A stretch of 64,000 nucleotides of DNA from Pleurocapsales cyanobacterium LEGE 10410 (GTDB lineage Bacteria > Cyanobacteriota > Cyanobacteriia > Cyanobacteriales > Xenococcaceae). The notes below the pieces were generated by a model. It was given only the letters and a program-made list of their open reading frames with translations. It made no database searches and was not told where the DNA came from. How positions within the stretch are numbered: the first letter of the stretch is position 1; every line of letters starts with the position of its first letter. Made by a program: the position numbers and the translations under genes. Positions 1,420 to 12,925 of the stretch are shown piece after piece. The stretch spans positions 1-64,000 of the forward strand of contig JADEXJ010000005.1 in assembly GCA_015207195.1 (NCBI GenBank). The letters are read 5' to 3'.

Positions 1420-1752
1420 ATGAAAATTTCCAATCTTAATTATCTAGAAGTTGTTAGTACCGAAACTGGAAACGCACTTGCTGGTGGTGGTGATATTGCT
1501 TTCAACATTGCTAAAGACGTTAATCTTAATAAGGTAGTTACCCTCGATATTGACAAAGTTGTTGACGTAAACGTAAATAATCCCGATCAGTTAGCTACTG
1601 CTGAAGCTGACGCGGAAGCCTTTGGTATTTATGCTTTAGCTGAAACCGATGCTTATACTTACGTTACCGAACAAGAAGCATTCTCTTACAGTGAATCTAC
1701 TGCTGCTCTGGACTTGAATCCAGGTGTTGACAATGGAGTAACACCTGCTTAA
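1420..1752 (+). CDS. Small exported peptide with double-glycine leader
   Basis: This is a 110-residue protein. Residues 1-23 look like a bacteriocin-type leader (INxLxYLExVSxE...) ending in Gly22-Gly23, the cleavage signal read by C39 peptidase exporters. The predicted mature part begins GDIAFNI and is acidic, with repeated alternating Asn/Asp/Val motifs, then DAEAFG, ALAETDA and a C-terminal FSYxESTAALDLN block. The same blocks recur in the protein at 4519-5415. A good ribosome site (AAGGAG, 7 nt before ATG) supports the start. The C39 exporter at 7124-10288 is the obvious candidate processor. Whether it is a bacteriocin, a signal or a surface protein cannot be told. Confidence 0.8.
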   Translation: MKISNLNYLEVVSTETGNALAGGGDIAFNIAKDVNLNKVVTLDIDKVVDVNVNNPDQLATAEADAEAFGIYALAETDAYTYVTEQEAFSYSESTAALDLNPGVDNGVTPA

Positions 1753-2038: not shown

Positions 2039-2785
2039 ATGATTAATTCCTGGGTAATACCAATCGAATCAGAAGAGATTATAAATTTTCTTAAACAAGA
2101 AATGCTCTTAAAGGGAATTTGTAAGAAAATTCTTTATCAAAAAATAATTGAATCAGCTGCTAAAAAACATCAGATTGCGATCGCGCCAGAAGAAATTCAA
2201 ACCGAAGCAGACAACATTCGTCACCAAAAACGCCTAGAAAACGCCAACGATACTTTCGCCTGGCTGAAAGAAGAAATGGTAACTCCCCAGGAATGGGAAG
2301 CGGGAATTATCAATCGTCTGCTAGCGCAAAAATTAGCCAAACACCTGTTTGAAAAAGAGGTAGAGCCGTATTTTGCGCAAAATCGTTTGGATTTTGACCA
2401 GTTTGTTCTCTATCAAATTGTTGTCCTAGATCGTCAACTAGCTCAAGAAATTTACTATCAAATAGAAGAAGAAGAAATTAGTTTTTATCAAGCTGCTCAT
2501 CTCTACGATCTTGACGAACAACGCAGATATCATTGTGGTTACAAAGGAAAAATTGGTCGTTGGAACTTGCCCCCACGCCTTGCCGAAGCTATTGGGAATG
2601 CTAGCATCAAACAAGTTATCGAACCGATCGCCATCCCACAAGGACAAGTAGAAGAATATCATCTTTTGATGGTCGAAAAATTTATTCCCGCCGAATTAAC
2701 TCCCGAAAGACATCAATACATTATCGAGCGTCTGTTTAAAAAGTGGCTCGAAAGCGAGTTTGATTCCCTAGTTCACAACCATTAA
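2039..2785 (+). CDS. SurA/parvulin-type peptidyl-prolyl cis-trans isomerase
   Basis: The protein has 248 residues: an N-terminal helical SurA-like segment (about 15-115), then a parvulin-like rotamase region (about 120-240) with the GxIGRWNLPPRLAEAI stretch. It has no signal peptide, so it is probably cytoplasmic. Proteins of this type often lie beside cyanobacterial HlyD/C39-ABC export genes, where they may keep substrates export-competent; here it sits between a leader-peptide gene and an RTX gene. The palindrome found before the candidate substrates is absent, and no clear ribosome site precedes the ATG. Confidence 0.75.
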   Translation: MINSWVIPIESEEIINFLKQEMLLKGICKKILYQKIIESAAKKHQIAIAPEEIQTEADNIRHQKRLENANDTFAWLKEEMVTPQEWEAGIINRLLAQKLAKHLFEKEVEPYFAQNRLDFDQFVLYQIVVLDRQLAQEIYYQIEEEEISFYQAAHLYDLDEQRRYHCGYKGKIGRWNLPPRLAEAIGNASIKQVIEPIAIPQGQVEEYHLLMVEKFIPAELTPERHQYIIERLFKKWLESEFDSLVHNH

Positions 2786-2863: not shown

Positions 2864-4252
2864 TTATATAACCGTAAAGTCAGCAGCACTGATGATTGGA
2901 ATGTTTTGCAAAGTGGCAAACTGTCCTCCCAAGCCAAATCCACTGTCAAAACCGTTTTGATTATAAAATAAATTACCAGTATCACTACTGTAGGTAATAA
3001 CAGCCTCGCTTACCCCAGCAAGCGAATCGGTAGCTACTACTTCAAATTCAGTAGCACTTATTGATTCACCCGTAGTGCTAGTAAGAGCAACAAAGGTTGT
3101 CTGGCTGAGAACAATTTTATCTCGATCAACTTCAAAGTCAGTAATTACATCTTTTCCGATCTCAGCAAATTCTAAAGCTCCATTGTAGGAAAAGCGATCT
3201 GCGTTAAAGCCTCCTGTGAGGGTATCATTCCCCCTACCACCATGAAGAAGATCTTCACCGTTACTACCGTTTAATAGATCGTTGCCCACACCTCCTCTGA
3301 GTAAGTCATCACCGTTACTACCGTTTAACAAATCGTCTCCAGTACCACCTTCGAGGAGATCGTCCCCATTGCTAGCATTTAAGGTATCATTGCCATAGCC
3401 ACCCTCAAGGGTATCATCACCGTTACCTCCAAAAACAAGATCGTCCCCATATCCAGCTAGCAGAAGATCATTACCATTCTTAGCAAAGATAACGTCGTCC
3501 CCCAAACTGGCATAAAACCTGTCGTCTTCTCGTGTTCCAAACCAAGTGTCGTCCCAAAGTGTACCATAGACAAAATCCGCACCCAAATTACCAATTTGAG
3601 AATCTGCCAACCATTCCACGGAACTTTGATTGACCATCAAGAGGGTGAGATTGGTATCGCGGTCAAAAGCGCGCTCATAAGTACCCCGCGCTGTATGGGA
3701 AATTAGATCGACATCATTGTTACCATCAATATCGATGTGGCGATCGCGATCGCTCAAGCTAAAATTAGGGCTAAAATAGACCTCCAAACCGCCAATTTGC
3801 TCGGACGAGACTAAATACGCCCAAAGATCGGCGTAGTCCACAACCTCAATATTATCAAGATCGGTAGTGTCTAGGAGCAGAAATTGAACGTTCAACTCCC
3901 CTTGGCTATATTCAGCCTCAGGAGCTTCGATTTCCTTAGCCTCTAGTAAAATATCTCCCAACCAATCAAAGGAGAAAGTGTCACCTTCTTCGACCGCAAA
4001 ACTAGCAACAACTCGCGCATCACTGGCAGCACTTCCTTCTGAAATTTCTCGACCATAGCCATTACTTTCGGTTAACAAGCCAGATAGATCGGAGTTATAA
4101 AAGAAAGCTTCCGCCTCAGCACCGCCAATGGTTTCACCACTTTCAACTATAGTAAGAGCGTCGGTATCGGTCTCGGTTGCTAAAGGAGCATGACTATAGT
4201 TGGAAAAAACAACATCGCCCAGTACGTCAACATAATTATCATGATCAAGCAT
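2864..4252 (-). CDS. RTX (hemolysin-type calcium-binding repeat) protein
   Basis: A 462-residue acidic protein. About 230 N-terminal residues have no family I recognise. Then come repeated GGxGxDxL nonapeptides (about 235-340) that form a calcium-binding beta-roll, and a C-terminal region (about 345-462) like those of type I secretion substrates. No Cys-rich or catalytic motif is visible. The N-terminus contains LATETDTDA and AEAEAFFY, faintly like the LATxExDAEAF block of the two leader-peptide-family proteins nearby. It has the same palindrome upstream (4322-4334). It is probably exported by the HlyD/ABC system here, or by another type I system with a TolC partner elsewhere. Confidence 0.85.
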   Translation of the reverse strand: MLDHDNYVDVLGDVVFSNYSHAPLATETDTDALTIVESGETIGGAEAEAFFYNSDLSGLLTESNGYGREISEGSAASDARVVASFAVEEGDTFSFDWLGDILLEAKEIEAPEAEYSQGELNVQFLLLDTTDLDNIEVVDYADLWAYLVSSEQIGGLEVYFSPNFSLSDRDRHIDIDGNNDVDLISHTARGTYERAFDRDTNLTLLMVNQSSVEWLADSQIGNLGADFVYGTLWDDTWFGTREDDRFYASLGDDVIFAKNGNDLLLAGYGDDLVFGGNGDDTLEGGYGNDTLNASNGDDLLEGGTGDDLLNGSNGDDLLRGGVGNDLLNGSNGEDLLHGGRGNDTLTGGFNADRFSYNGALEFAEIGKDVITDFEVDRDKIVLSQTTFVALTSTTGESISATEFEVVATDSLAGVSEAVITYSSDTGNLFYNQNGFDSGFGLGGQFATLQNIPIISAADFTVI

Positions 4253-4518: not shown

Positions 4519-5415
4519 CTATACCAGGTTTCCACCATCGCCATTGAGGTCGAGAGCAGCAGTAGATTCACCATAAGAGAATGCTTCCCCTTCACCAGGA
4601 ATCGGCGGAACAGCACCACCAAAATTACTGGCAGCCTCGAAAGCCCAATCACCAGTTGCTCCAATTTGAAGACTTTCAAACTCGGTAACAAAACCAGTAG
4701 TTGGATAATCCACTCCATCAAAAGTAAAGAAACCTGGATTGTCCGCTGCAAATCCTTCAAAGATGACTTCAATCTCTGGACCAGGAGGGGAGAAATCAGC
4801 CAAGAATAGGCTACCTTCTGGTACAGTAAACAGTAGTTCGTCGGTAGTTTCTGTTCCATCACCATCAAGGTCAAGCGTTCTTTCCCCGAAGTTTACTACC
4901 CAATCGGCGTCGTTAGTATATAGGCCTTCTACCAGGGGTTCGATAATCTCCCCTGTCTGAGTAAGATTTAAATCTGTAACAGAAAGCAGAGGATCTGGTA
5001 GGGGCGTATCCTGCCCAGGTGGTGGTGCGCTCAAACTAGCTAACGAGCCAAAGCCGTTGATATCATCTACGTCTGGTGGGGGGTCACCCGCCGAGTCAAA
5101 CACGATCTCAATCGTGTCTGCTAACTCGTCATCGTCATCTCCGTCATCCCCGATAACTAAGTCGTCGATATTACCCAGAACGTCAATCGAACCAGGATTG
5201 AGTACGGGTTCGCCAGGTTCTCCAGGTTCGCTGTTAACGTAAGTAAAAGCATCAGTTTCAGCTAAGGCATTTTCACCAAAAGCTTCGGCATCAGTTTCAG
5301 AAGTAGCCAGCAGATCTTCATTGTCTACGTTGGCGTTAACATTCTTGTCGATTTGCAGATTAACATTTTTGTTGAGATCGACATTTTTCTCAATATTAAA
5401 ATTAATGTCACCCAT
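4519..5415 (-). CDS. Leaderless long paralogue of the double-glycine peptide
   Basis: The start is ATG 5415, preceded by AAGGAG. An in-frame TAA lies just upstream, so no leader can be encoded in this frame. The first residues after Met (GDINFNI) align exactly with the predicted mature start of the 1420-1752 peptide, and homology continues through LATSETDAEAFG and ALAETDAFTYV. The C-terminal FSYGESTAALDLN block also matches. Between these shared ends lies an insertion of roughly 190 residues, acidic and Pro/Gly-rich, with EFESLQIGATGDWAFEA. That insertion has no family I can name, but its composition suits an extracellular beta-rich domain. The protein has 298 residues. How it would be exported without a leader is unclear. 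Confidence 0.75.
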   Translation of the reverse strand: MGDINFNIEKNVDLNKNVNLQIDKNVNANVDNEDLLATSETDAEAFGENALAETDAFTYVNSEPGEPGEPVLNPGSIDVLGNIDDLVIGDDGDDDDELADTIEIVFDSAGDPPPDVDDINGFGSLASLSAPPPGQDTPLPDPLLSVTDLNLTQTGEIIEPLVEGLYTNDADWVVNFGERTLDLDGDGTETTDELLFTVPEGSLFLADFSPPGPEIEVIFEGFAADNPGFFTFDGVDYPTTGFVTEFESLQIGATGDWAFEAASNFGGAVPPIPGEGEAFSYGESTAALDLNGDGGNLV

Positions 5416-5827: not shown

Positions 5828-6829
5828 TCAACTAGCCGAACTAAAAACATTTCCAGCTATGAGACTAGCAGCATCTATTCCTAAGACAGCACCAATCAAA
5901 TCATCATTAAAGAAAATTAGCGCGTTGCCACTAGCATCTACCCCAAAATCATAGCCTTCCTGGTTATTGGCATTAAGCTGAATTGTATCCACACCAATCT
6001 CTAAGTCTTGAATTAGAGCATAATCTGCTGCACCATCTCCGAGATAAAAAACATTGTCCACATCTCCCAAGACAAATGTATCTGCCTCTCCTTCCCCCAC
6101 TAAAATATCTATTTCTCCAGTTGACGTTCCACCACTTCCACCAGTAAGAGTATCATTACCAGCACCACCAAAGAGAGTGTCATTTTCTGTACCTCCATCG
6201 AGTAGATCGTTGTCGTTACCGCCACTGAGTTGATCAAATCCCCCCGCACCCATAAGTTCGTCGTTACCGTCTTCTCCTAAGAGGAGGTCATTTCCTGCAA
6301 CCCCATTGAGTGAGTCATCCCCCGTACCTCCTGATAACTGATCGTCACCTCGGTTGCCATTGAGGACATCATTGTCAGCACCGCCAAACAGCAGATCGTT
6401 TCCTAAACCAGCATATAGTTCATCATTACCGTTACCACCAAAGAGAAGATCGTCATCTCTACCGCCATTGAGAGAATCATCACCATCGCCACCAGACAAT
6501 TGATCCATACCGTCATTCCCAAATAGGGAATCATTACCGATGCCCCCGTCTAATTCATCATTGTCATCACCGCCAAAAATCAGGTCGTTTCCCACTCCTC
6601 CATTTAAAGTATCTTGTCCTTCCTCTCCTTGAAGGAAGTCATCTCCATCTAAACCAGATATTAGATCGTTGCCTTCCTCACTGCGAATAATGTCTTCAGC
6701 TAAAGTTCCCTCTAATACATCATCTCCTTCGGTAGTTGCCAAAGAATCTCGCAGGCTTTCTCTAGAAGTTGTTTCTTGACTGGCTTCACGTCTTGCAGTA
6801 ATTGTTGCTCCTGGTGTGTAGGTTGCCAT
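5828..6829 (-). CDS. RTX calcium-binding repeat protein
   Basis: A 333-residue acidic protein. After a 35-residue N-terminus come about 20 tandem GGxGNDxLxGG-type nonapeptides (about 36-235), a long beta-roll. A 90-residue C-terminal region follows (DTFVLGD... LIQDLEIGVDTIQL...), of the kind seen at the end of many cyanobacterial RTX proteins and type I secretion substrates. GGAG stands about 12 nt before the ATG. The same palindrome is found 194 nt upstream. No enzymatic domain is seen; a structural or surface role is likely. Confidence 0.88.
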   Translation of the reverse strand: MATYTPGATITARREASQETTSRESLRDSLATTEGDDVLEGTLAEDIIRSEEGNDLISGLDGDDFLQGEEGQDTLNGGVGNDLIFGGDDNDELDGGIGNDSLFGNDGMDQLSGGDGDDSLNGGRDDDLLFGGNGNDELYAGLGNDLLFGGADNDVLNGNRGDDQLSGGTGDDSLNGVAGNDLLLGEDGNDELMGAGGFDQLSGGNDNDLLDGGTENDTLFGGAGNDTLTGGSGGTSTGEIDILVGEGEADTFVLGDVDNVFYLGDGAADYALIQDLEIGVDTIQLNANNQEGYDFGVDASGNALIFFNDDLIGAVLGIDAASLIAGNVFSSAS

Positions 6830-7123: not shown

Positions 7124-10100
7124 CTAAATATCCAATTGTTGTTTGGCGAGATGGTAATAAAGACCGTGTTGAGCAATTAGTTCTTCGTGAATGCCTTGTT
7201 CGACAACAATGCCTCGATCCAATACGAGGATGCAGTCTGCATTACGCACGGTGGAAAAACGATGGGCAATGATAAAAGTCGTACATTCCTGACTGATACG
7301 CCCTAAGTTATGCTGAAATCTGCTTTCTGATTCAGTATCGAGAGAACTAGTTGCTTCGTCTAAAATTAAAATTCGCGGTTCTCCTAATAAGGCGCGAGCG
7401 ATCGCAATTCGCTGTCTTTGTCCCCCAGAAAGGGTCGAACCCCGTTCTCCGACTTTGGTATTATATCCCAAGGGCATGGCTTGAATAAAACCATGAGCCT
7501 CCGCTAGTTTGGCAGCCTCGATCGCCTGTTCTAAATCAAATTCGGGTCGGTATAGGGTGATGTTTTCTAAGATCGTTCCCGAAAACAAAAAGCAGTCTTG
7601 GGGTACAACACCTATTTGCGATCGCAATGAGACGGGAGAGACGTGCTGGATATCGTGACCGTCGATCCAGATTCGACCGTTAGTCGGGTAATATAAGCCC
7701 TGTAATAATTTGACTAGGGTACTTTTACCCGAACCACTACGACCAACTATAGCCAAAGTTTGTCCTGGGGTGACTGTAAACGAAATGTTTTGCAGTACGT
7801 TGCGTTCTTCTTCCGTGTCATAGCGGAAAGTGACGTTTTCGCAGCGGACATCACCCCGTAATTCTGGGAGGACGAGCATTTGCTTGGTGGGGGATTCTTC
7901 TTGTTCGGTGTCAAAGACATCATTGAGTCTTTCTACGGAAATCAAGACTTCTTGCAGTTCGTCCCACAGACCAACCAAGGCAATTACAGGACTGATAATA
8001 TGACCCTTCATCATGTTAAATGCCACAAACTGACCGATAGTTAGCTGGTCTTGGATGACTAAGGTTGCACCGTACCACAACAAAGCCGTTCCTCCAATGG
8101 AGTTGATCAGTCCGCTGAGGAGTCCCAAATTAATTGCCAGCTTTTGACCTTTAAAGCGCACGTTGATCTGATGGGTTAACAAATCTTCCCAACGCCAGCG
8201 TACTTCTTTTTCGGCTGCTACTGATTTGACCGTGGCGATTCCCGAAATCATTTCCACCAAAGAAGAATTTTGGTCGGCTGCTGCGCTAAATCTTTCTCTC
8301 GACAGCTTGCGTAATAGGGGGGTTGCTACCAAAGTCAAAATTATAATCGGCGGAATTAATCCTAAAACCAGCAAAGTCAGTTTCCAGTTGTAATAGAGCA
8401 TCAACCCCAAATAGACAAAGCCCGTGACGAAGTTTAACCACGACAACAAAACTTGTCCCAATAAAAATCGCTGAATCTTGGAGTTTTCTCCTACCCTAGT
8501 GGTGATGTCTCCCACCCGACGGGATTCAAAAAACTTGAGAGGTAAAGTTATGGTGTGGTTAATAAAACTACTAACCATAGTTAGGTTAATTCGGTTGGAA
8601 AAATAACTCAGCAAATAGTTACGAGTTGCCGACAAACCCATCCCCCACAGACCAAACAACAATGCTCCAATGACAAAAACATTTAGGGTGCTTTGACTTT
8701 TATTTACGACTATTTGGTCGAGGATAATCTGGGTAAATAGAGGGGAGACAATCCCAAAAACTTGAATCAAGATCGACAGGCTGATAATTTGCCAGATTAG
8801 TTTGCGATAGGGTAAAAGTAACTTAAAAAATTTACCCAAAGAACGTTTTTCATCGGGGGTTTGATAGAGACGCTCAGTAGGATCGAGCAAGATAGCGTAT
8901 CCCGTCCAGCCAACGAGAAATTCTTGACGAGATAAAATACGTTTTCCCTTAGCAGGATCGGCGACCAAAAGGCGATCGCCCTTAACCCAATAGACGACCG
9001 CGTAATGATTGCCTTCCCAGTGAGCAATCCAGGGGTTGGTCTGTTCTGCCAGACGGTTTAGACTAGCTCGTACGGGGCGAGCATGATAGCCGATGTTTTC
9101 GGCTGCTTTGGTTAAACCTTTGAGGGAAATACCAGTACGTCCAATTCCTGCCAGCCTGCGGAGATAATTGACCGTAAAACGTTTGCCCCAATACTGACTA
9201 ATCATTGCCAAGCAAGCAACCCCACAGTCAGAGGAGCTTTGTTGCCCGATAAACGGATAGCGTCGCCCAAATGAAGTCTGCTTGAATTTTGGTTGAGGAA
9301 AGTCAATCTCGGGAGGATCGGGCTTAACTGTAGTGGGGAGTGAAACCTGCGTCTGAAGGTCGGTAATTATCGATTCTGGGCGATCGCGGGGGGTAAAAAC
9401 TATAGTGTTGGTTTCGTCCTCACTATCCGCTGTTGCGCCACCGTTGGTATAAACATCGGCAAAAGAAGGAATGAGCCGACACACGGTTTCCCAATGTTGT
9501 TTGGGTAGATGATAGACCTTTAGATCTGTTTGAGCTACCCAATCATCGGCAATAGCATCGGGATATCCCCAAGCCGAACCAATATTCACCGAGCAGTCGC
9601 CAATTTCCCCCTGACAAAGCCAACAGCGGTCTAGATCAGTCTCGGCTAGAGTCGTTCCCGCAGCAAGGTGACGTTCTTCAAGATAGGGCAGAAGCTGCTG
9701 TAGTTTGTGACTGGAAAGAGAGCGCAGAGCAGTCAGGGTTTTAAAAAAGATTAAGCCCTGGCGTTTTTGAGTTTCCCTACGCCAGTGTTGTTGAAATTGT
9801 GGTGATATTGACCAACGGTCAGAGCAGGCTCCGTCGTTGTACGGCGGAGTAATCTCTGACTCCAGCTGTAATTTTTCCAGGGGAATTCTGGCAACTCGTA
9901 CTTTGCTTTCTGCTGCGATCGCCCGATAAGATAAGTATTGGCGATCGAATAGGGGTTCGCTACCAAAAGTGTTTCCTTCAGTGAGTAACCCCGTGGGAAC
10001 TTCTCGCTGGAGTTCTGGATCGCAACTCAACAGTCGTACTCGTCCCTGACAAATTAGATAGAAAAACTCGGTCGAATTAGTCGAAGCTATATCATCTATT

Positions 10101-10288
10101 AAATCTCCTAGCTCGAATTCTAAAATTTTCCAATATTGAATTAAAGGTTGCAAAAACAATTTACTTTTAGCATCGATCTTTAATTGCTTCTCTAAGGGCA
10201 AAATCAGCAGATCGAGCTTGTTTCGATTTGGAGGCTTGTGTTGCCCGTCAGCAATAGACTGAACGGAAGTATTTTGATGTGTATTCAT
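7124..10288 (-). CDS. hetC-like: HetC-like C39 peptidase/ABC exporter with cyclic-nucleotide-binding-like region
   Basis: This 1054-residue inner-membrane exporter has the layout of HetC. Residues about 40-280 resemble one or two degenerate cyclic-nucleotide-binding folds. C39 peptidase: about 345-470, with Cys355 (SDCGVACL), His428 (NHYAVV) and Asp444 (ADPAKG), so the triad is intact. Transmembrane domain: about 495-780. ATPase: Walker A GRSGSGKST (849-857), signature LSGGQ (953-957), Walker B LILDEA (974-979), H-loop His1009. The family cleaves double-glycine leaders and exports the product with an HlyD adaptor and an outer-membrane channel. It lies downstream of the hetP-like and hlyD-like genes on the same strand, 557 nt from the hetP-like stop. 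No strong ribosome site precedes the ATG. Confidence 0.9.
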   Translation of the reverse strand: MNTHQNTSVQSIADGQHKPPNRNKLDLLILPLEKQLKIDAKSKLFLQPLIQYWKILEFELGDLIDDIASTNSTEFFYLICQGRVRLLSCDPELQREVPTGLLTEGNTFGSEPLFDRQYLSYRAIAAESKVRVARIPLEKLQLESEITPPYNDGACSDRWSISPQFQQHWRRETQKRQGLIFFKTLTALRSLSSHKLQQLLPYLEERHLAAGTTLAETDLDRCWLCQGEIGDCSVNIGSAWGYPDAIADDWVAQTDLKVYHLPKQHWETVCRLIPSFADVYTNGGATADSEDETNTIVFTPRDRPESIITDLQTQVSLPTTVKPDPPEIDFPQPKFKQTSFGRRYPFIGQQSSSDCGVACLAMISQYWGKRFTVNYLRRLAGIGRTGISLKGLTKAAENIGYHARPVRASLNRLAEQTNPWIAHWEGNHYAVVYWVKGDRLLVADPAKGKRILSRQEFLVGWTGYAILLDPTERLYQTPDEKRSLGKFFKLLLPYRKLIWQIISLSILIQVFGIVSPLFTQIILDQIVVNKSQSTLNVFVIGALLFGLWGMGLSATRNYLLSYFSNRINLTMVSSFINHTITLPLKFFESRRVGDITTRVGENSKIQRFLLGQVLLSWLNFVTGFVYLGLMLYYNWKLTLLVLGLIPPIIILTLVATPLLRKLSRERFSAAADQNSSLVEMISGIATVKSVAAEKEVRWRWEDLLTHQINVRFKGQKLAINLGLLSGLINSIGGTALLWYGATLVIQDQLTIGQFVAFNMMKGHIISPVIALVGLWDELQEVLISVERLNDVFDTEQEESPTKQMLVLPELRGDVRCENVTFRYDTEEERNVLQNISFTVTPGQTLAIVGRSGSGKSTLVKLLQGLYYPTNGRIWIDGHDIQHVSPVSLRSQIGVVPQDCFLFSGTILENITLYRPEFDLEQAIEAAKLAEAHGFIQAMPLGYNTKVGERGSTLSGGQRQRIAIARALLGEPRILILDEATSSLDTESESRFQHNLGRISQECTTFIIAHRFSTVRNADCILVLDRGIVVEQGIHEELIAQHGLYYHLAKQQLDI

Positions 10289-10711: not shown

Positions 10712-11155
10712 CTAAGCTGCTAGAGCTAAACGAACCGCTGAAAAATCAAACTCATCTTCAGCTAAAACCCAATCAGATAGATAAGTCCTATTACCCCCAT
10801 GTAGCTGTTTTTCTTCCCGCGAGACAGTTTCCAAGTAACTGAGATCGTTAATTTGATAAGAAGATTTGTTTGAAGCTGATTTTGCTGCCTTAACTGCCAG
10901 GCAGTCTCGATCTTGTTGGCTCAAGCTATCTGTCACTGGTCGCTCTGAAGCATTTTGTTGAGCATGGCTTTTCATCAAGCGATTATAGGTTCGATAGGGA
11001 ATATAGTGTAGCGGATTATATCCAGCAAAGCGCAACATCAAGACACAAGCCCAGGAATACTTACCCGCCAAAATTGCTGCGACAATGCGATCGAATTTAC
11101 TAGATTCCATTACTTCGTCAAGTTTAGTTTCCGAATTCACTAAGTGCTGATTCAT
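10712..11155 (-). CDS. hetP-like: HetP-like protein with a double-glycine-leader-like segment near its C-terminus
   Basis: The chosen start at 11155 (MNQHLVNSE) follows GAGGAAATG and gives 147 residues; an upstream start at 11203 would add 16. Residues about 22-63 hold the HetP signature: [21 protein letters not shown] followed by [13 protein letters not shown]. In Anabaena, hetP lies next to hetC and commits cells to heterocyst formation. Residues 102-121 read [20 protein letters not shown], very close to the leader of the 1420 peptide, and are followed by a 26-residue acidic tail (NRTYLSDW...). The C39 exporter gene is next downstream. Whether cleavage occurs at the GG is an open question. 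Confidence 0.85.
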
Positions 11156-11287: not shown

Positions 11288-12925
11288 TTAAATTTCCATT
11301 CCGTCTTGCTGTAATTTTTTAATCGGCTCTAGCCAAACATCCAGAATGCGACGACGGCGAATTACGATATCGGCGGTAGCTGTTTGACCTGCTTTGAACT
11401 TAATCTTTTGTCGATTTTCAGTAATATGGTCCCGCTTTAGTGCAACTTCTACCTGATAAACTTCTCCTAATTGAGAATCGTCTTTGGCATCGGCAGAAAG
11501 ATGGGTTACTTCACCAGAAATCAGACCGTAATACTGGTAGGGATAGGCATCCAATTTTACCTGTACTGGCATCCCTTCCTCAATAAATCCTGCTTCAGAG
11601 TTAAGTATGCTTGCTGAAAGAATTAGGGGAGCTGCAATGGGTGCTATTTCCACTACAGTTTCACCAGCTTGAACGACTTTACCAGCATTATCCACGTTGA
11701 GTGATAAGACAACACCATCTACGGGGGCTTTCAGCGATTTTTGTTGCAGCTTAACTTTGGCACTGGATAATAAGTTTTGGGTATCGACAACTTTACTTTC
11801 TATTTGAGCTAGTTCAAATTCTAGTTGCTCAATTTTTTGTTGAGTTTCTAGCTGAGTTCTCTTCCCATCGGCTTGTTTTTGAATTAACTCTGCTTCTAGC
11901 ATCTTAATCTCTTTTAGGGTGGTAGCCAATTCCCCCTGATTACTTGTAATCTGAGACTCAAGTTCTCCCCTAGCTCGATCCGATTGAAATATTTGTTCGT
12001 TAGCAGTAGTAACTTCTTGGAGTTGGCTTTGAGTAACTTGTCTTTGGGCTTCACGCAGAGATTGTTCTACTTGAAAAACGTATTCTTGAGATACTGCCCC
12101 TTGTTCAGCTAGGGTTGCCAGCTTGTCCAAACGCTGTTGACGAGAGACTATTTCGGTGTTTAGTTGATTTAAACGTTCTCGCGCCAAGTTGGAAAGTGGT
12201 CTTAAGTTAATTTGCCTGTCAGCATAGGCTGTGACTTCCCCTTGCTTTTGAGCTAACAAACGACTAAGGGTGTCTACTTTATCTTTAGCTAGGGAAATTG
12301 CCGTGCGTTGGGCGGACACTTCCGCATTAGTAATATCCTCTCTAGTTTTAGCTTCTAATGCTAGTTGTTCTCGCAAAGCTCGTTTTTGACCAAATTCAAA
12401 TCGATAGGCTTGAAGCATCTGTTCGAGTCGTGCAACTTCTTTGGTTACTAGCTCGGTATCCAACTCGATTAAAGTTTGTCCTGCTTTGACTTCTTGCGCT
12501 TCTCGGACGGCGATATATTTAACCTTACCAATTTCTACTGGTTCGACTTTATAAGTTTTACCTTGAGGAATTAGTTTGCCTTGGGCTTTGCTCACCTCGT
12601 CAATTTTCCCCCACCACGACCAAGCAAAAAATACGAGACAAAAACTCATTGCCCCCAGAGTAACGAGCTGAGAAAAACGGGGCGGTGGTTCTTCTAAAAG
12701 TTGATTTAAAGTAGGAGACCAATGGGAAGTCTGAGTTGTGGCAAGATCGATAGAAGTTACGGTATTTAAGGAAGCTGAATTTGGTGTTACTGAGACGAGG
12801 TTGCTCCCTGGTGAATTGAGCTTCGTTACTTCTGTTGAAGAAGATTCTGAACCATCTTGGTTCTGTGCAGCAATATCTCCAGCTTCTCTCCTAGAAATAG
12901 TAGATGCTGAGTTGAAAAAATTCAT
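11288..12925 (-). CDS. HlyD-family membrane fusion (adaptor) protein
   Basis: A 545-residue periplasmic adaptor for a type I exporter. It has an unusually long Ser/Thr-rich cytoplasmic N-terminus of about 80 residues, one membrane segment (about 86-105), a first half-lipoyl segment, and a long Gln/Glu/Leu coiled-coil hairpin (about 150-390). The second half-lipoyl segment (LKAPVDGVVLSLNVDNAGKVV) and a beta-barrel domain follow. It is first in the hlyD-hetP-hetC order on one strand, and should link the ABC exporter to a TolC-like channel that is not in this window. Confidence 0.9.
   Translation of the reverse strand: MNFFNSASTISRREAGDIAAQNQDGSESSSTEVTKLNSPGSNLVSVTPNSASLNTVTSIDLATTQTSHWSPTLNQLLEEPPPRFSQLVTLGAMSFCLVFFAWSWWGKIDEVSKAQGKLIPQGKTYKVEPVEIGKVKYIAVREAQEVKAGQTLIELDTELVTKEVARLEQMLQAYRFEFGQKRALREQLALEAKTREDITNAEVSAQRTAISLAKDKVDTLSRLLAQKQGEVTAYADRQINLRPLSNLARERLNQLNTEIVSRQQRLDKLATLAEQGAVSQEYVFQVEQSLREAQRQVTQSQLQEVTTANEQIFQSDRARGELESQITSNQGELATTLKEIKMLEAELIQKQADGKRTQLETQQKIEQLEFELAQIESKVVDTQNLLSSAKVKLQQKSLKAPVDGVVLSLNVDNAGKVVQAGETVVEIAPIAAPLILSASILNSEAGFIEEGMPVQVKLDAYPYQYYGLISGEVTHLSADAKDDSQLGEVYQVEVALKRDHITENRQKIKFKAGQTATADIVIRRRRILDVWLEPIKKLQQDGMEI

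Follow-up and report, generated by a model that had tools for sequence, protein, structure and literature searches.

A segment near the C-terminus of the HetP-like protein encoded in a 64,000-nucleotide stretch of Pleurocapsales cyanobacterium LEGE 10410 (the window hereafter) has the features of a recognition element for C39 peptidases, the domain present in the HetC-type exporter encoded next to it. Judging by sequence comparison, we put the probability at close to 0.6 that the exporter recognises HetP through this element, and it would then probably cut HetP after the double glycine. The motif is not peculiar to the locus in the window; it is widespread among exporter-linked HetP proteins, and its survival across the phylum mainly where HetC is encoded beside it suggests that HetP is the partner of HetC. 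In Nostocales, moreover, loss of the double glycine (GG) depends on loss of HetC beyond what shared ancestry accounts for.

In the window, the genes are arranged in the order HlyD, HetP and exporter, all three on the reverse strand (Table 1). A HetP family search of the genome found a single HetP, the closest named relatives are Xenococcaceae MAGs (50–60% identity), and the organism is apparently non-heterocystous. The surrounding cluster has further features of its own. Two RTX-repeat proteins, at 5828–6829 and 2864–4252 (-), share it with the C39 exporter and HlyD and may be type I secretion cargo that leaves through the channel formed by these two. At 4519–5415 (-) lies a paralogue of the small secreted protein at 1420–1752. 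This paralogue is a leaderless copy, and its own ATG and a ribosome-binding-like sequence are located exactly at the predicted post-GG cut of the other protein (M-GDINFNIEKN aligned with GG-GDIAFNIAKD).

Table 1. Features of the HetP locus and its cluster, with positions in the window.
Feature	Position	Strand	Basis
HetP-like protein, 147 aa	10712..11155	(-)	NF037966 match, E 4.7e-33, 112.6 bits
HetP domain, residues 2-63	10967..11152	(-)	NCBIfam HetP_family NF037966
C39-leader-like motif, residues 102-121, predicted cut after Gly121	10793..10852	(-)	Leader HMM, alignments
Post-GG tail, 26 aa, candidate released peptide	10715..10792	(-)	Aromatic-rich, weak constraint, dN/dS ~0.5
HetC-type exporter, 1054 aa: cNMP, C39 peptidase, ABC membrane and ATPase domains	7124..10288	(-)	Pfam C39 E 4e-39
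C39 peptidase domain, exporter residues 344-472, Cys355/His428/Asp444 intact	8873..9259	(-)	
HlyD-type periplasmic adaptor (membrane fusion protein)	11288..12925	(-)	TIGR01843 E 4.5e-74, over cut-off
Small exported-type protein, N-terminal double-glycine leader MKISNLNYLEVVSTETGNALAGG	1420..1752	(+)	Sequence, leader HMM
PpiC/SurA-type rotamase of the cluster	2039..2785	(+)	PF00639 E 6e-5, over cut-off; TIGR04500 under cut-off

The HetP-like protein lies well above the curated cut-off of NF037966 (112.6 vs 45 bits) and has no match in a Pfam search. Helices are predicted at residues 18–29, 33–43 and 54–70, the last slightly overrunning the end of the HetP domain, and AlphaFold2 returns a confident three-helix domain (block-mean pLDDT 83–95 over residues 21–70). 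From residue 76 onward, that is in the linker, motif and tail, pLDDT is low, which by itself is not proof of disorder, and no secondary structure is predicted; the motif is thus probably accessible and flexible. A Foldseek search with the HetP model gave no significant match in the PDB (best E 5.9), and the fold therefore yields no clue to function.

The residues that make up the motif are of the leader type, with DLxYLE, V, I or L at position -4, and GG. The window HetP has both parts of the double-glycine motif as defined here, a GG, GA or GS pair and a hydrophobic residue at -4. It is not an N-terminal leader directly preceding its cargo, since the motif occupies residues 102–121 of 147 and has the HetP domain ahead of it. 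Spacing and composition are regular among the 43 operon-type HetPs, where the YLE core lies 10 residues from GG in 35, the -4 residue is V, I or L in 40, and the -3 residue is basic (R, H or K) in 27. The tails that follow GG in these proteins are 6–58 residues long and rich in aromatic residues (W/F/Y 16.5% vs 1.2% in the linker). Substrates of PCAT/ComA-type enzymes carry N-terminal leaders with the canonical positions E(-8)L(-7). In HetP, by contrast, the motif is C-terminal and the YLE core is further from GG than these canonical positions. The C39 domain of the window is homologous to the solved C39 domains of PCAT, ComA and AMS/PCAT (6mpz), with E-values of 2e-19 to 5e-16 and the Cys-His-Asp residues in common. 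Long, protein-like leaders are found in NHLP and N11P. Both are double-glycine precursors of cyanobacterial C39/HlyD clusters (PMC3140520); theirs is a different leader family from that of HetP, and in heterocystous species HetP is conserved as a regulator in the cytosol.

The sequence-only reading of this locus had noticed that the C-terminal segment of HetP resembles the leader of the small exported-type protein (MKISNLNYLEVVSTETGNALAGG), and the resemblance is real. A leader HMM was derived from 53 N-terminal leader candidates from operon-type loci, zero HetPs being included; some of the 53 are clear chance ORFs, the effect of which is at most a blunting of the profile. Run on 34,986 ORFs and 227 HetPs, the HMM detected 71 of the HetPs at E<1 and five at E<0.01. 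The HetP of the window ranked first among them (E 3e-4, residues 101–121), and no non-HetP ORF among the 34,986 had an internal match (start >60) at iE<1. As the profile finds the HetP segment and no other internal one, the segment is objectively leader-like. Chance could be invoked because the motif is short and pairwise similarity by itself is weak evidence. However, the motif is found again in many families, its spacing is nearly constant and it is under purifying selection, and with zero other internal matches in ~35,000 ORFs the internal match is unique to HetP. Chance resemblance was rejected on these grounds, its probability being practically nil.

Of 386 cyanobacterial genomes, 64 contained matches to the HetP family model, at 146 places counting the window; the window was re-entered from its own sequence to give 147 rows, so that its HetP is possibly counted twice, with the overall picture the same. 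Under the first pattern set, the core together with GG was present in 34 of the 147 HetPs, and a C39 exporter was located within 6 kb of 31 of these 34, compared with 31 of the remaining 113. When a HetP was counted as exporter-linked if a HetC-type exporter lay upstream of it or next to it, or if HlyD was its direct neighbour, and the pattern was hand-widened for four diverged motifs (three with an exporter and one without), an intact GG was found in 34 of 41 HetPs beside a HetC-clade exporter or HlyD and in 4 of 106 others (Fisher p 5e-22). The enrichment near C39-bearing HetC on which the earlier hypothesis depended is therefore present, and it also holds when phylogeny is taken into account, as described below. 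Four HetPs beside an exporter or HlyD are motif-less (L061, L089, L158 and L174), and the exporter-less HetP paralogs L139, L162 and L131 have motif remnants only.

The usual non-heterocystous gene order, seen in many GTDB families, is C39 exporter, HlyD and HetP, the gap between HlyD and the HetP that follows it measuring from tens to a few hundred bases; in the genus of the window, unlike this usual order, the exporter follows HetP. Covariation between the HetP motif and the leader of its own locus was not significant in any comparison across 19 genus-level groups (p 0.11–0.69). The locus-specific cases that had appeared promising by eye (DLDYLQ in L148, YLEP/YLQP in L054/L066 and YV/HV in L159–L165) were rejected on these values.

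The neighbouring exporter had been described as HetC-like, and this description is borne out by 51% identity to a Nostocales HetC (query residues 31–1056) and by placement in the same clade. It combines the cNMP, C39, ABC membrane and ATPase domains that define the HetC type here, and its catalytic triad is intact. In the exporter tree, which comes from a quick search with a midpoint root and includes two long-branch HetCs, the exporter of the window and Nostocales HetC group on one side (SH-aLRT 100) with the other exporters located next to HetP or upstream of it, and the exporters downstream of HetP in many Nostocales fall on the other. This split ties the motif to the HetC type and not to C39 exporters generally.

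Part of this picture has been in the literature for some time. HetP-like proteins beside bacteriocin clusters, carrying the motif KIxDLxYLEx10GG, were described by Wang, Fewer and Sivonen, who proposed an M16 peptidase for these HetP-type precursors and a bacteriocin as their product (Wang et al., 2011; PMC3140520), and a 2015 survey listed HetP-type putative precursors in Subsection V genomes (PMC4558948). The location of HetP beside a C39/HlyD cluster and the motif itself are common to the precursors of Wang et al. and to the window. What differs here is that the motif tracks the HetC-clade C39 exporter and is found in true hetC-hetP pairs as well. The sequence-only reading had also allowed that the segment might be a normal part of the HetP family, which is correct for the exporter-linked branch, where the motif is ancestral and was published in 2011 (PMC3140520). 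A search of the open-access literature gave no paper that connects the HetP motif with HetC. Thus, the motif and its bacteriocin-cluster context have been known since 2011, and the co-evolution test is new here.

That test makes use of the loss of HetC within Nostocales. A whole-genome HetC search combined with gene order placed HetC in 13 of 42 Nostocales genomes; the best matches in the other genomes reach at most 47–48% identity and are other exporters. Absence of hetC has been published for Nodularia spumigena (PMC3610870) and Cylindrospermopsis (PMC2821919). The correlation tree contains 100 Nostocales HetP orthologs and was built from the part of the protein preceding the motif; this is a mixed sample of family-model places and the nearest relatives of the window, and some genomes are possibly in both. 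Both HetC and GG are present in 43 of the orthologs, neither in 38, GG only in 16 and HetC only in 3. On this short HetP gene tree, used in place of a species tree, the dependent model is favoured over the independent one (LR 29, p 8e-6), and the fitted rate of GG loss is 7.1 without HetC vs 0.84 with it, a difference of ~8-fold. Simulations under independence (n=40) produced an LR of at most 14. Parsimony places 13 HetC changes on the HetP tree, and hence the association does not arise from one event.

Several loci deserve separate mention. Scored as HetC-present were L056, with a 259-residue HetC fragment, and the Nodularia-type L046 and L060, in which the catalytic Cys of the HetC C39 domain has changed to Ser. 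HetP in L046 and L060 ends a few residues past the GG site, with GGGLDN or with GS in its place (RGSGLDN). L051 and L247 have an intact C39 domain yet RGRG in HetP, and an apparent loss of catalytic residues in L247 was rejected as an alignment artefact. HetC is apparently broken, with a partial C39 upstream of hetP, in many Nostoc-type genomes (L194, L209, L211, L215, L223, L224, L245, L248, L251, L254 and L257). Several of these broken-HetC genomes have changes in the HetP motif (DRAYLEV, RSG, RAG) or a truncation.

Selection on the motif was compared between groups with and without HetC, using regions that are short and give rough individual values. In five HetC-bearing Nostocales groups dN/dS is 0–0.02 for the core and 0 for the GG spacer, below that of the HetP domain in most of the five, compared with 0.12–0.39 and 0.17–0.28, respectively, in HetC-less groups. 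The HetP domain is itself under strong constraint (0–0.14), and the post-GG tail gives 0.07–0.36 in Nostocales vs 0.49–0.67 in operon types. The YLE core is partly kept in HetC-less heterocystous species after the loss of GG, and this persisting constraint leaves room for a second role.

These patterns bear on whether the motif is cut at all. The leader-like tail might merely tether HetP to the C39 domain, GG serving as docking sequence and not as cut site; the exporter would then set the location of HetP, or HetP would control the exporter. In favour of this, the YLE core is constrained even after GG and HetC are lost, post-GG tails are weakly conserved in operon types, and HetP-GFP is polar like HetC-GFP and remains so without the peptidase domain (PMC4133259). 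However, GG and the hydrophobic -4 residue are nearly unchanged where HetC is intact, a large HetC-less group loses GG while keeping the core, and in the two Nodularia-type genomes with the Cys-to-Ser change, a small sample, HetP ends just past GG/GS. Docking without cutting is unlikely in light of these observations. A role unrelated to the exporter, for instance in the binding of a HetP partner or in turnover, would make the co-occurrence a matter of shared operon ancestry. Most lineages do inherit HetP and the exporter together, and some HetC-less clades retain the core. However, the loss of GG follows that of HetC to a degree that common descent does not explain, the motif is lost in exporter-free paralogs, and the leader HMM singles the motif out, all of which renders such a role very unlikely.

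The experimental work on heterocyst formers, including genetics in PCC 7120 that connects HetC with HetP, constrains what a cut could achieve. Peptidase activity has been demonstrated for Nostoc HetC, without a known substrate, and a double-glycine-leader gene near hetC was not found in the same 2024 study (PMC10986499). The HetC-HetP pair of Nostoc/Anabaena PCC 7120 has a cNMP-C39-ABC exporter beside HetP, as does the window, and the motif of the window HetP is also present in Nostocales HetPs encoded next to HetC. The window differs from PCC 7120 in its full-length HlyD, its one HetP, its HlyD-HetP-exporter order and its apparently non-heterocystous host. In PCC 7120, deletion of the HetC peptidase domain is overcome by moderate overexpression of HetP-sfGFP, which brings heterocysts back, C-terminal HetP-GFP looks cytoplasmic with or without that domain, and GFP fusions of HetC and HetP both concentrate near the heterocyst poles (PMC4133259). 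The bypass by overexpression implies that the cut is dispensable, and the cytoplasmic location of C-terminally tagged HetP counts against wholesale export of the C-terminus. Together, the rescue and the tag make it more likely that the essential heterocyst output is the HetP body.

It could be argued that HetP is no more than the precursor of a bacteriocin or pheromone, with its HetP domain acting as a long leader and the tail behind GG as the product that is exported. The operon does include a C39 exporter and HlyD and has small GG-leader proteins close by, the tails are aromatic-rich and fast-evolving in operon types, and HetP has been classed as a putative precursor (PMC3140520; PMC4558948). 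Nevertheless, the strong constraint on the HetP domain and its work as a cytosolic regulator in Nostoc are at odds with this, overexpressed HetP functions without the HetC peptidase domain, and GG tracks HetC, whereas Wang et al. proposed an M16 peptidase. We consider it rather unlikely that HetP is a precursor and nothing else.

Recognition of HetP by HetC, probably with cutting, is the reading that we prefer. The C39 domain of the adjacent HetC-type exporter, which lies in the cytosol, would bind the motif and cut behind Gly121. The first 121 residues of HetP would stay in the cytosol as its body, and a short tail rich in aromatic residues would be released and may pass out through the ABC/HlyD channel. 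For non-heterocystous cyanobacteria like that of the window, HetP would then serve as a precursor with a long leader, as a cytosolic sensor of how active the exporter is, or as both. Heterocystous lineages would have turned this pair into HetC-HetP while HlyD decayed, and commitment would be driven by the HetP body and not by the released tail. If the cut occurs in heterocysts, it may tune or free the HetP body and would not be an indispensable maker of peptide.

The state of hlyD is consistent with such a descent. Non-heterocystous operons have a full-length copy of the gene. Where it lies between hetC and hetP in Fischerella-type genomes, it encodes ~305 residues and lacks the middle part; it encodes 336 residues in Scytonema/Tolypothrix and 160–178 residues with a short N-terminal match only in several Calothrix-type genomes. 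In some genomes, L201 and L238 among them, no hlyD was detected next to HetP. The shrinkage series in Nostocales runs through L226, L230, L233, L236 and L237, L200, L212 and L217, and further L198, L210, L213, L222 and L231. With this stepwise decay, hetC-hetP looks like a reduced secretion operon, and the absence of a membrane fusion protein near hetC, which was known before, appears as the last step of the series. It is conceivable, at somewhat less than even odds, that HetP is a HetC substrate cut after GG and that HetC-HetP is a repurposed bacteriocin-type operon in which the long leader became a regulator.

HetC is essential for heterocyst formation in PCC 7120, and a leader-type motif sits at the C-terminus of the neighbouring HetP, which makes the question of the HetC substrate directly testable. 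If HetC does read HetP, then a developmental decision of a multicellular bacterium would descend from a peptide-secretion operon.
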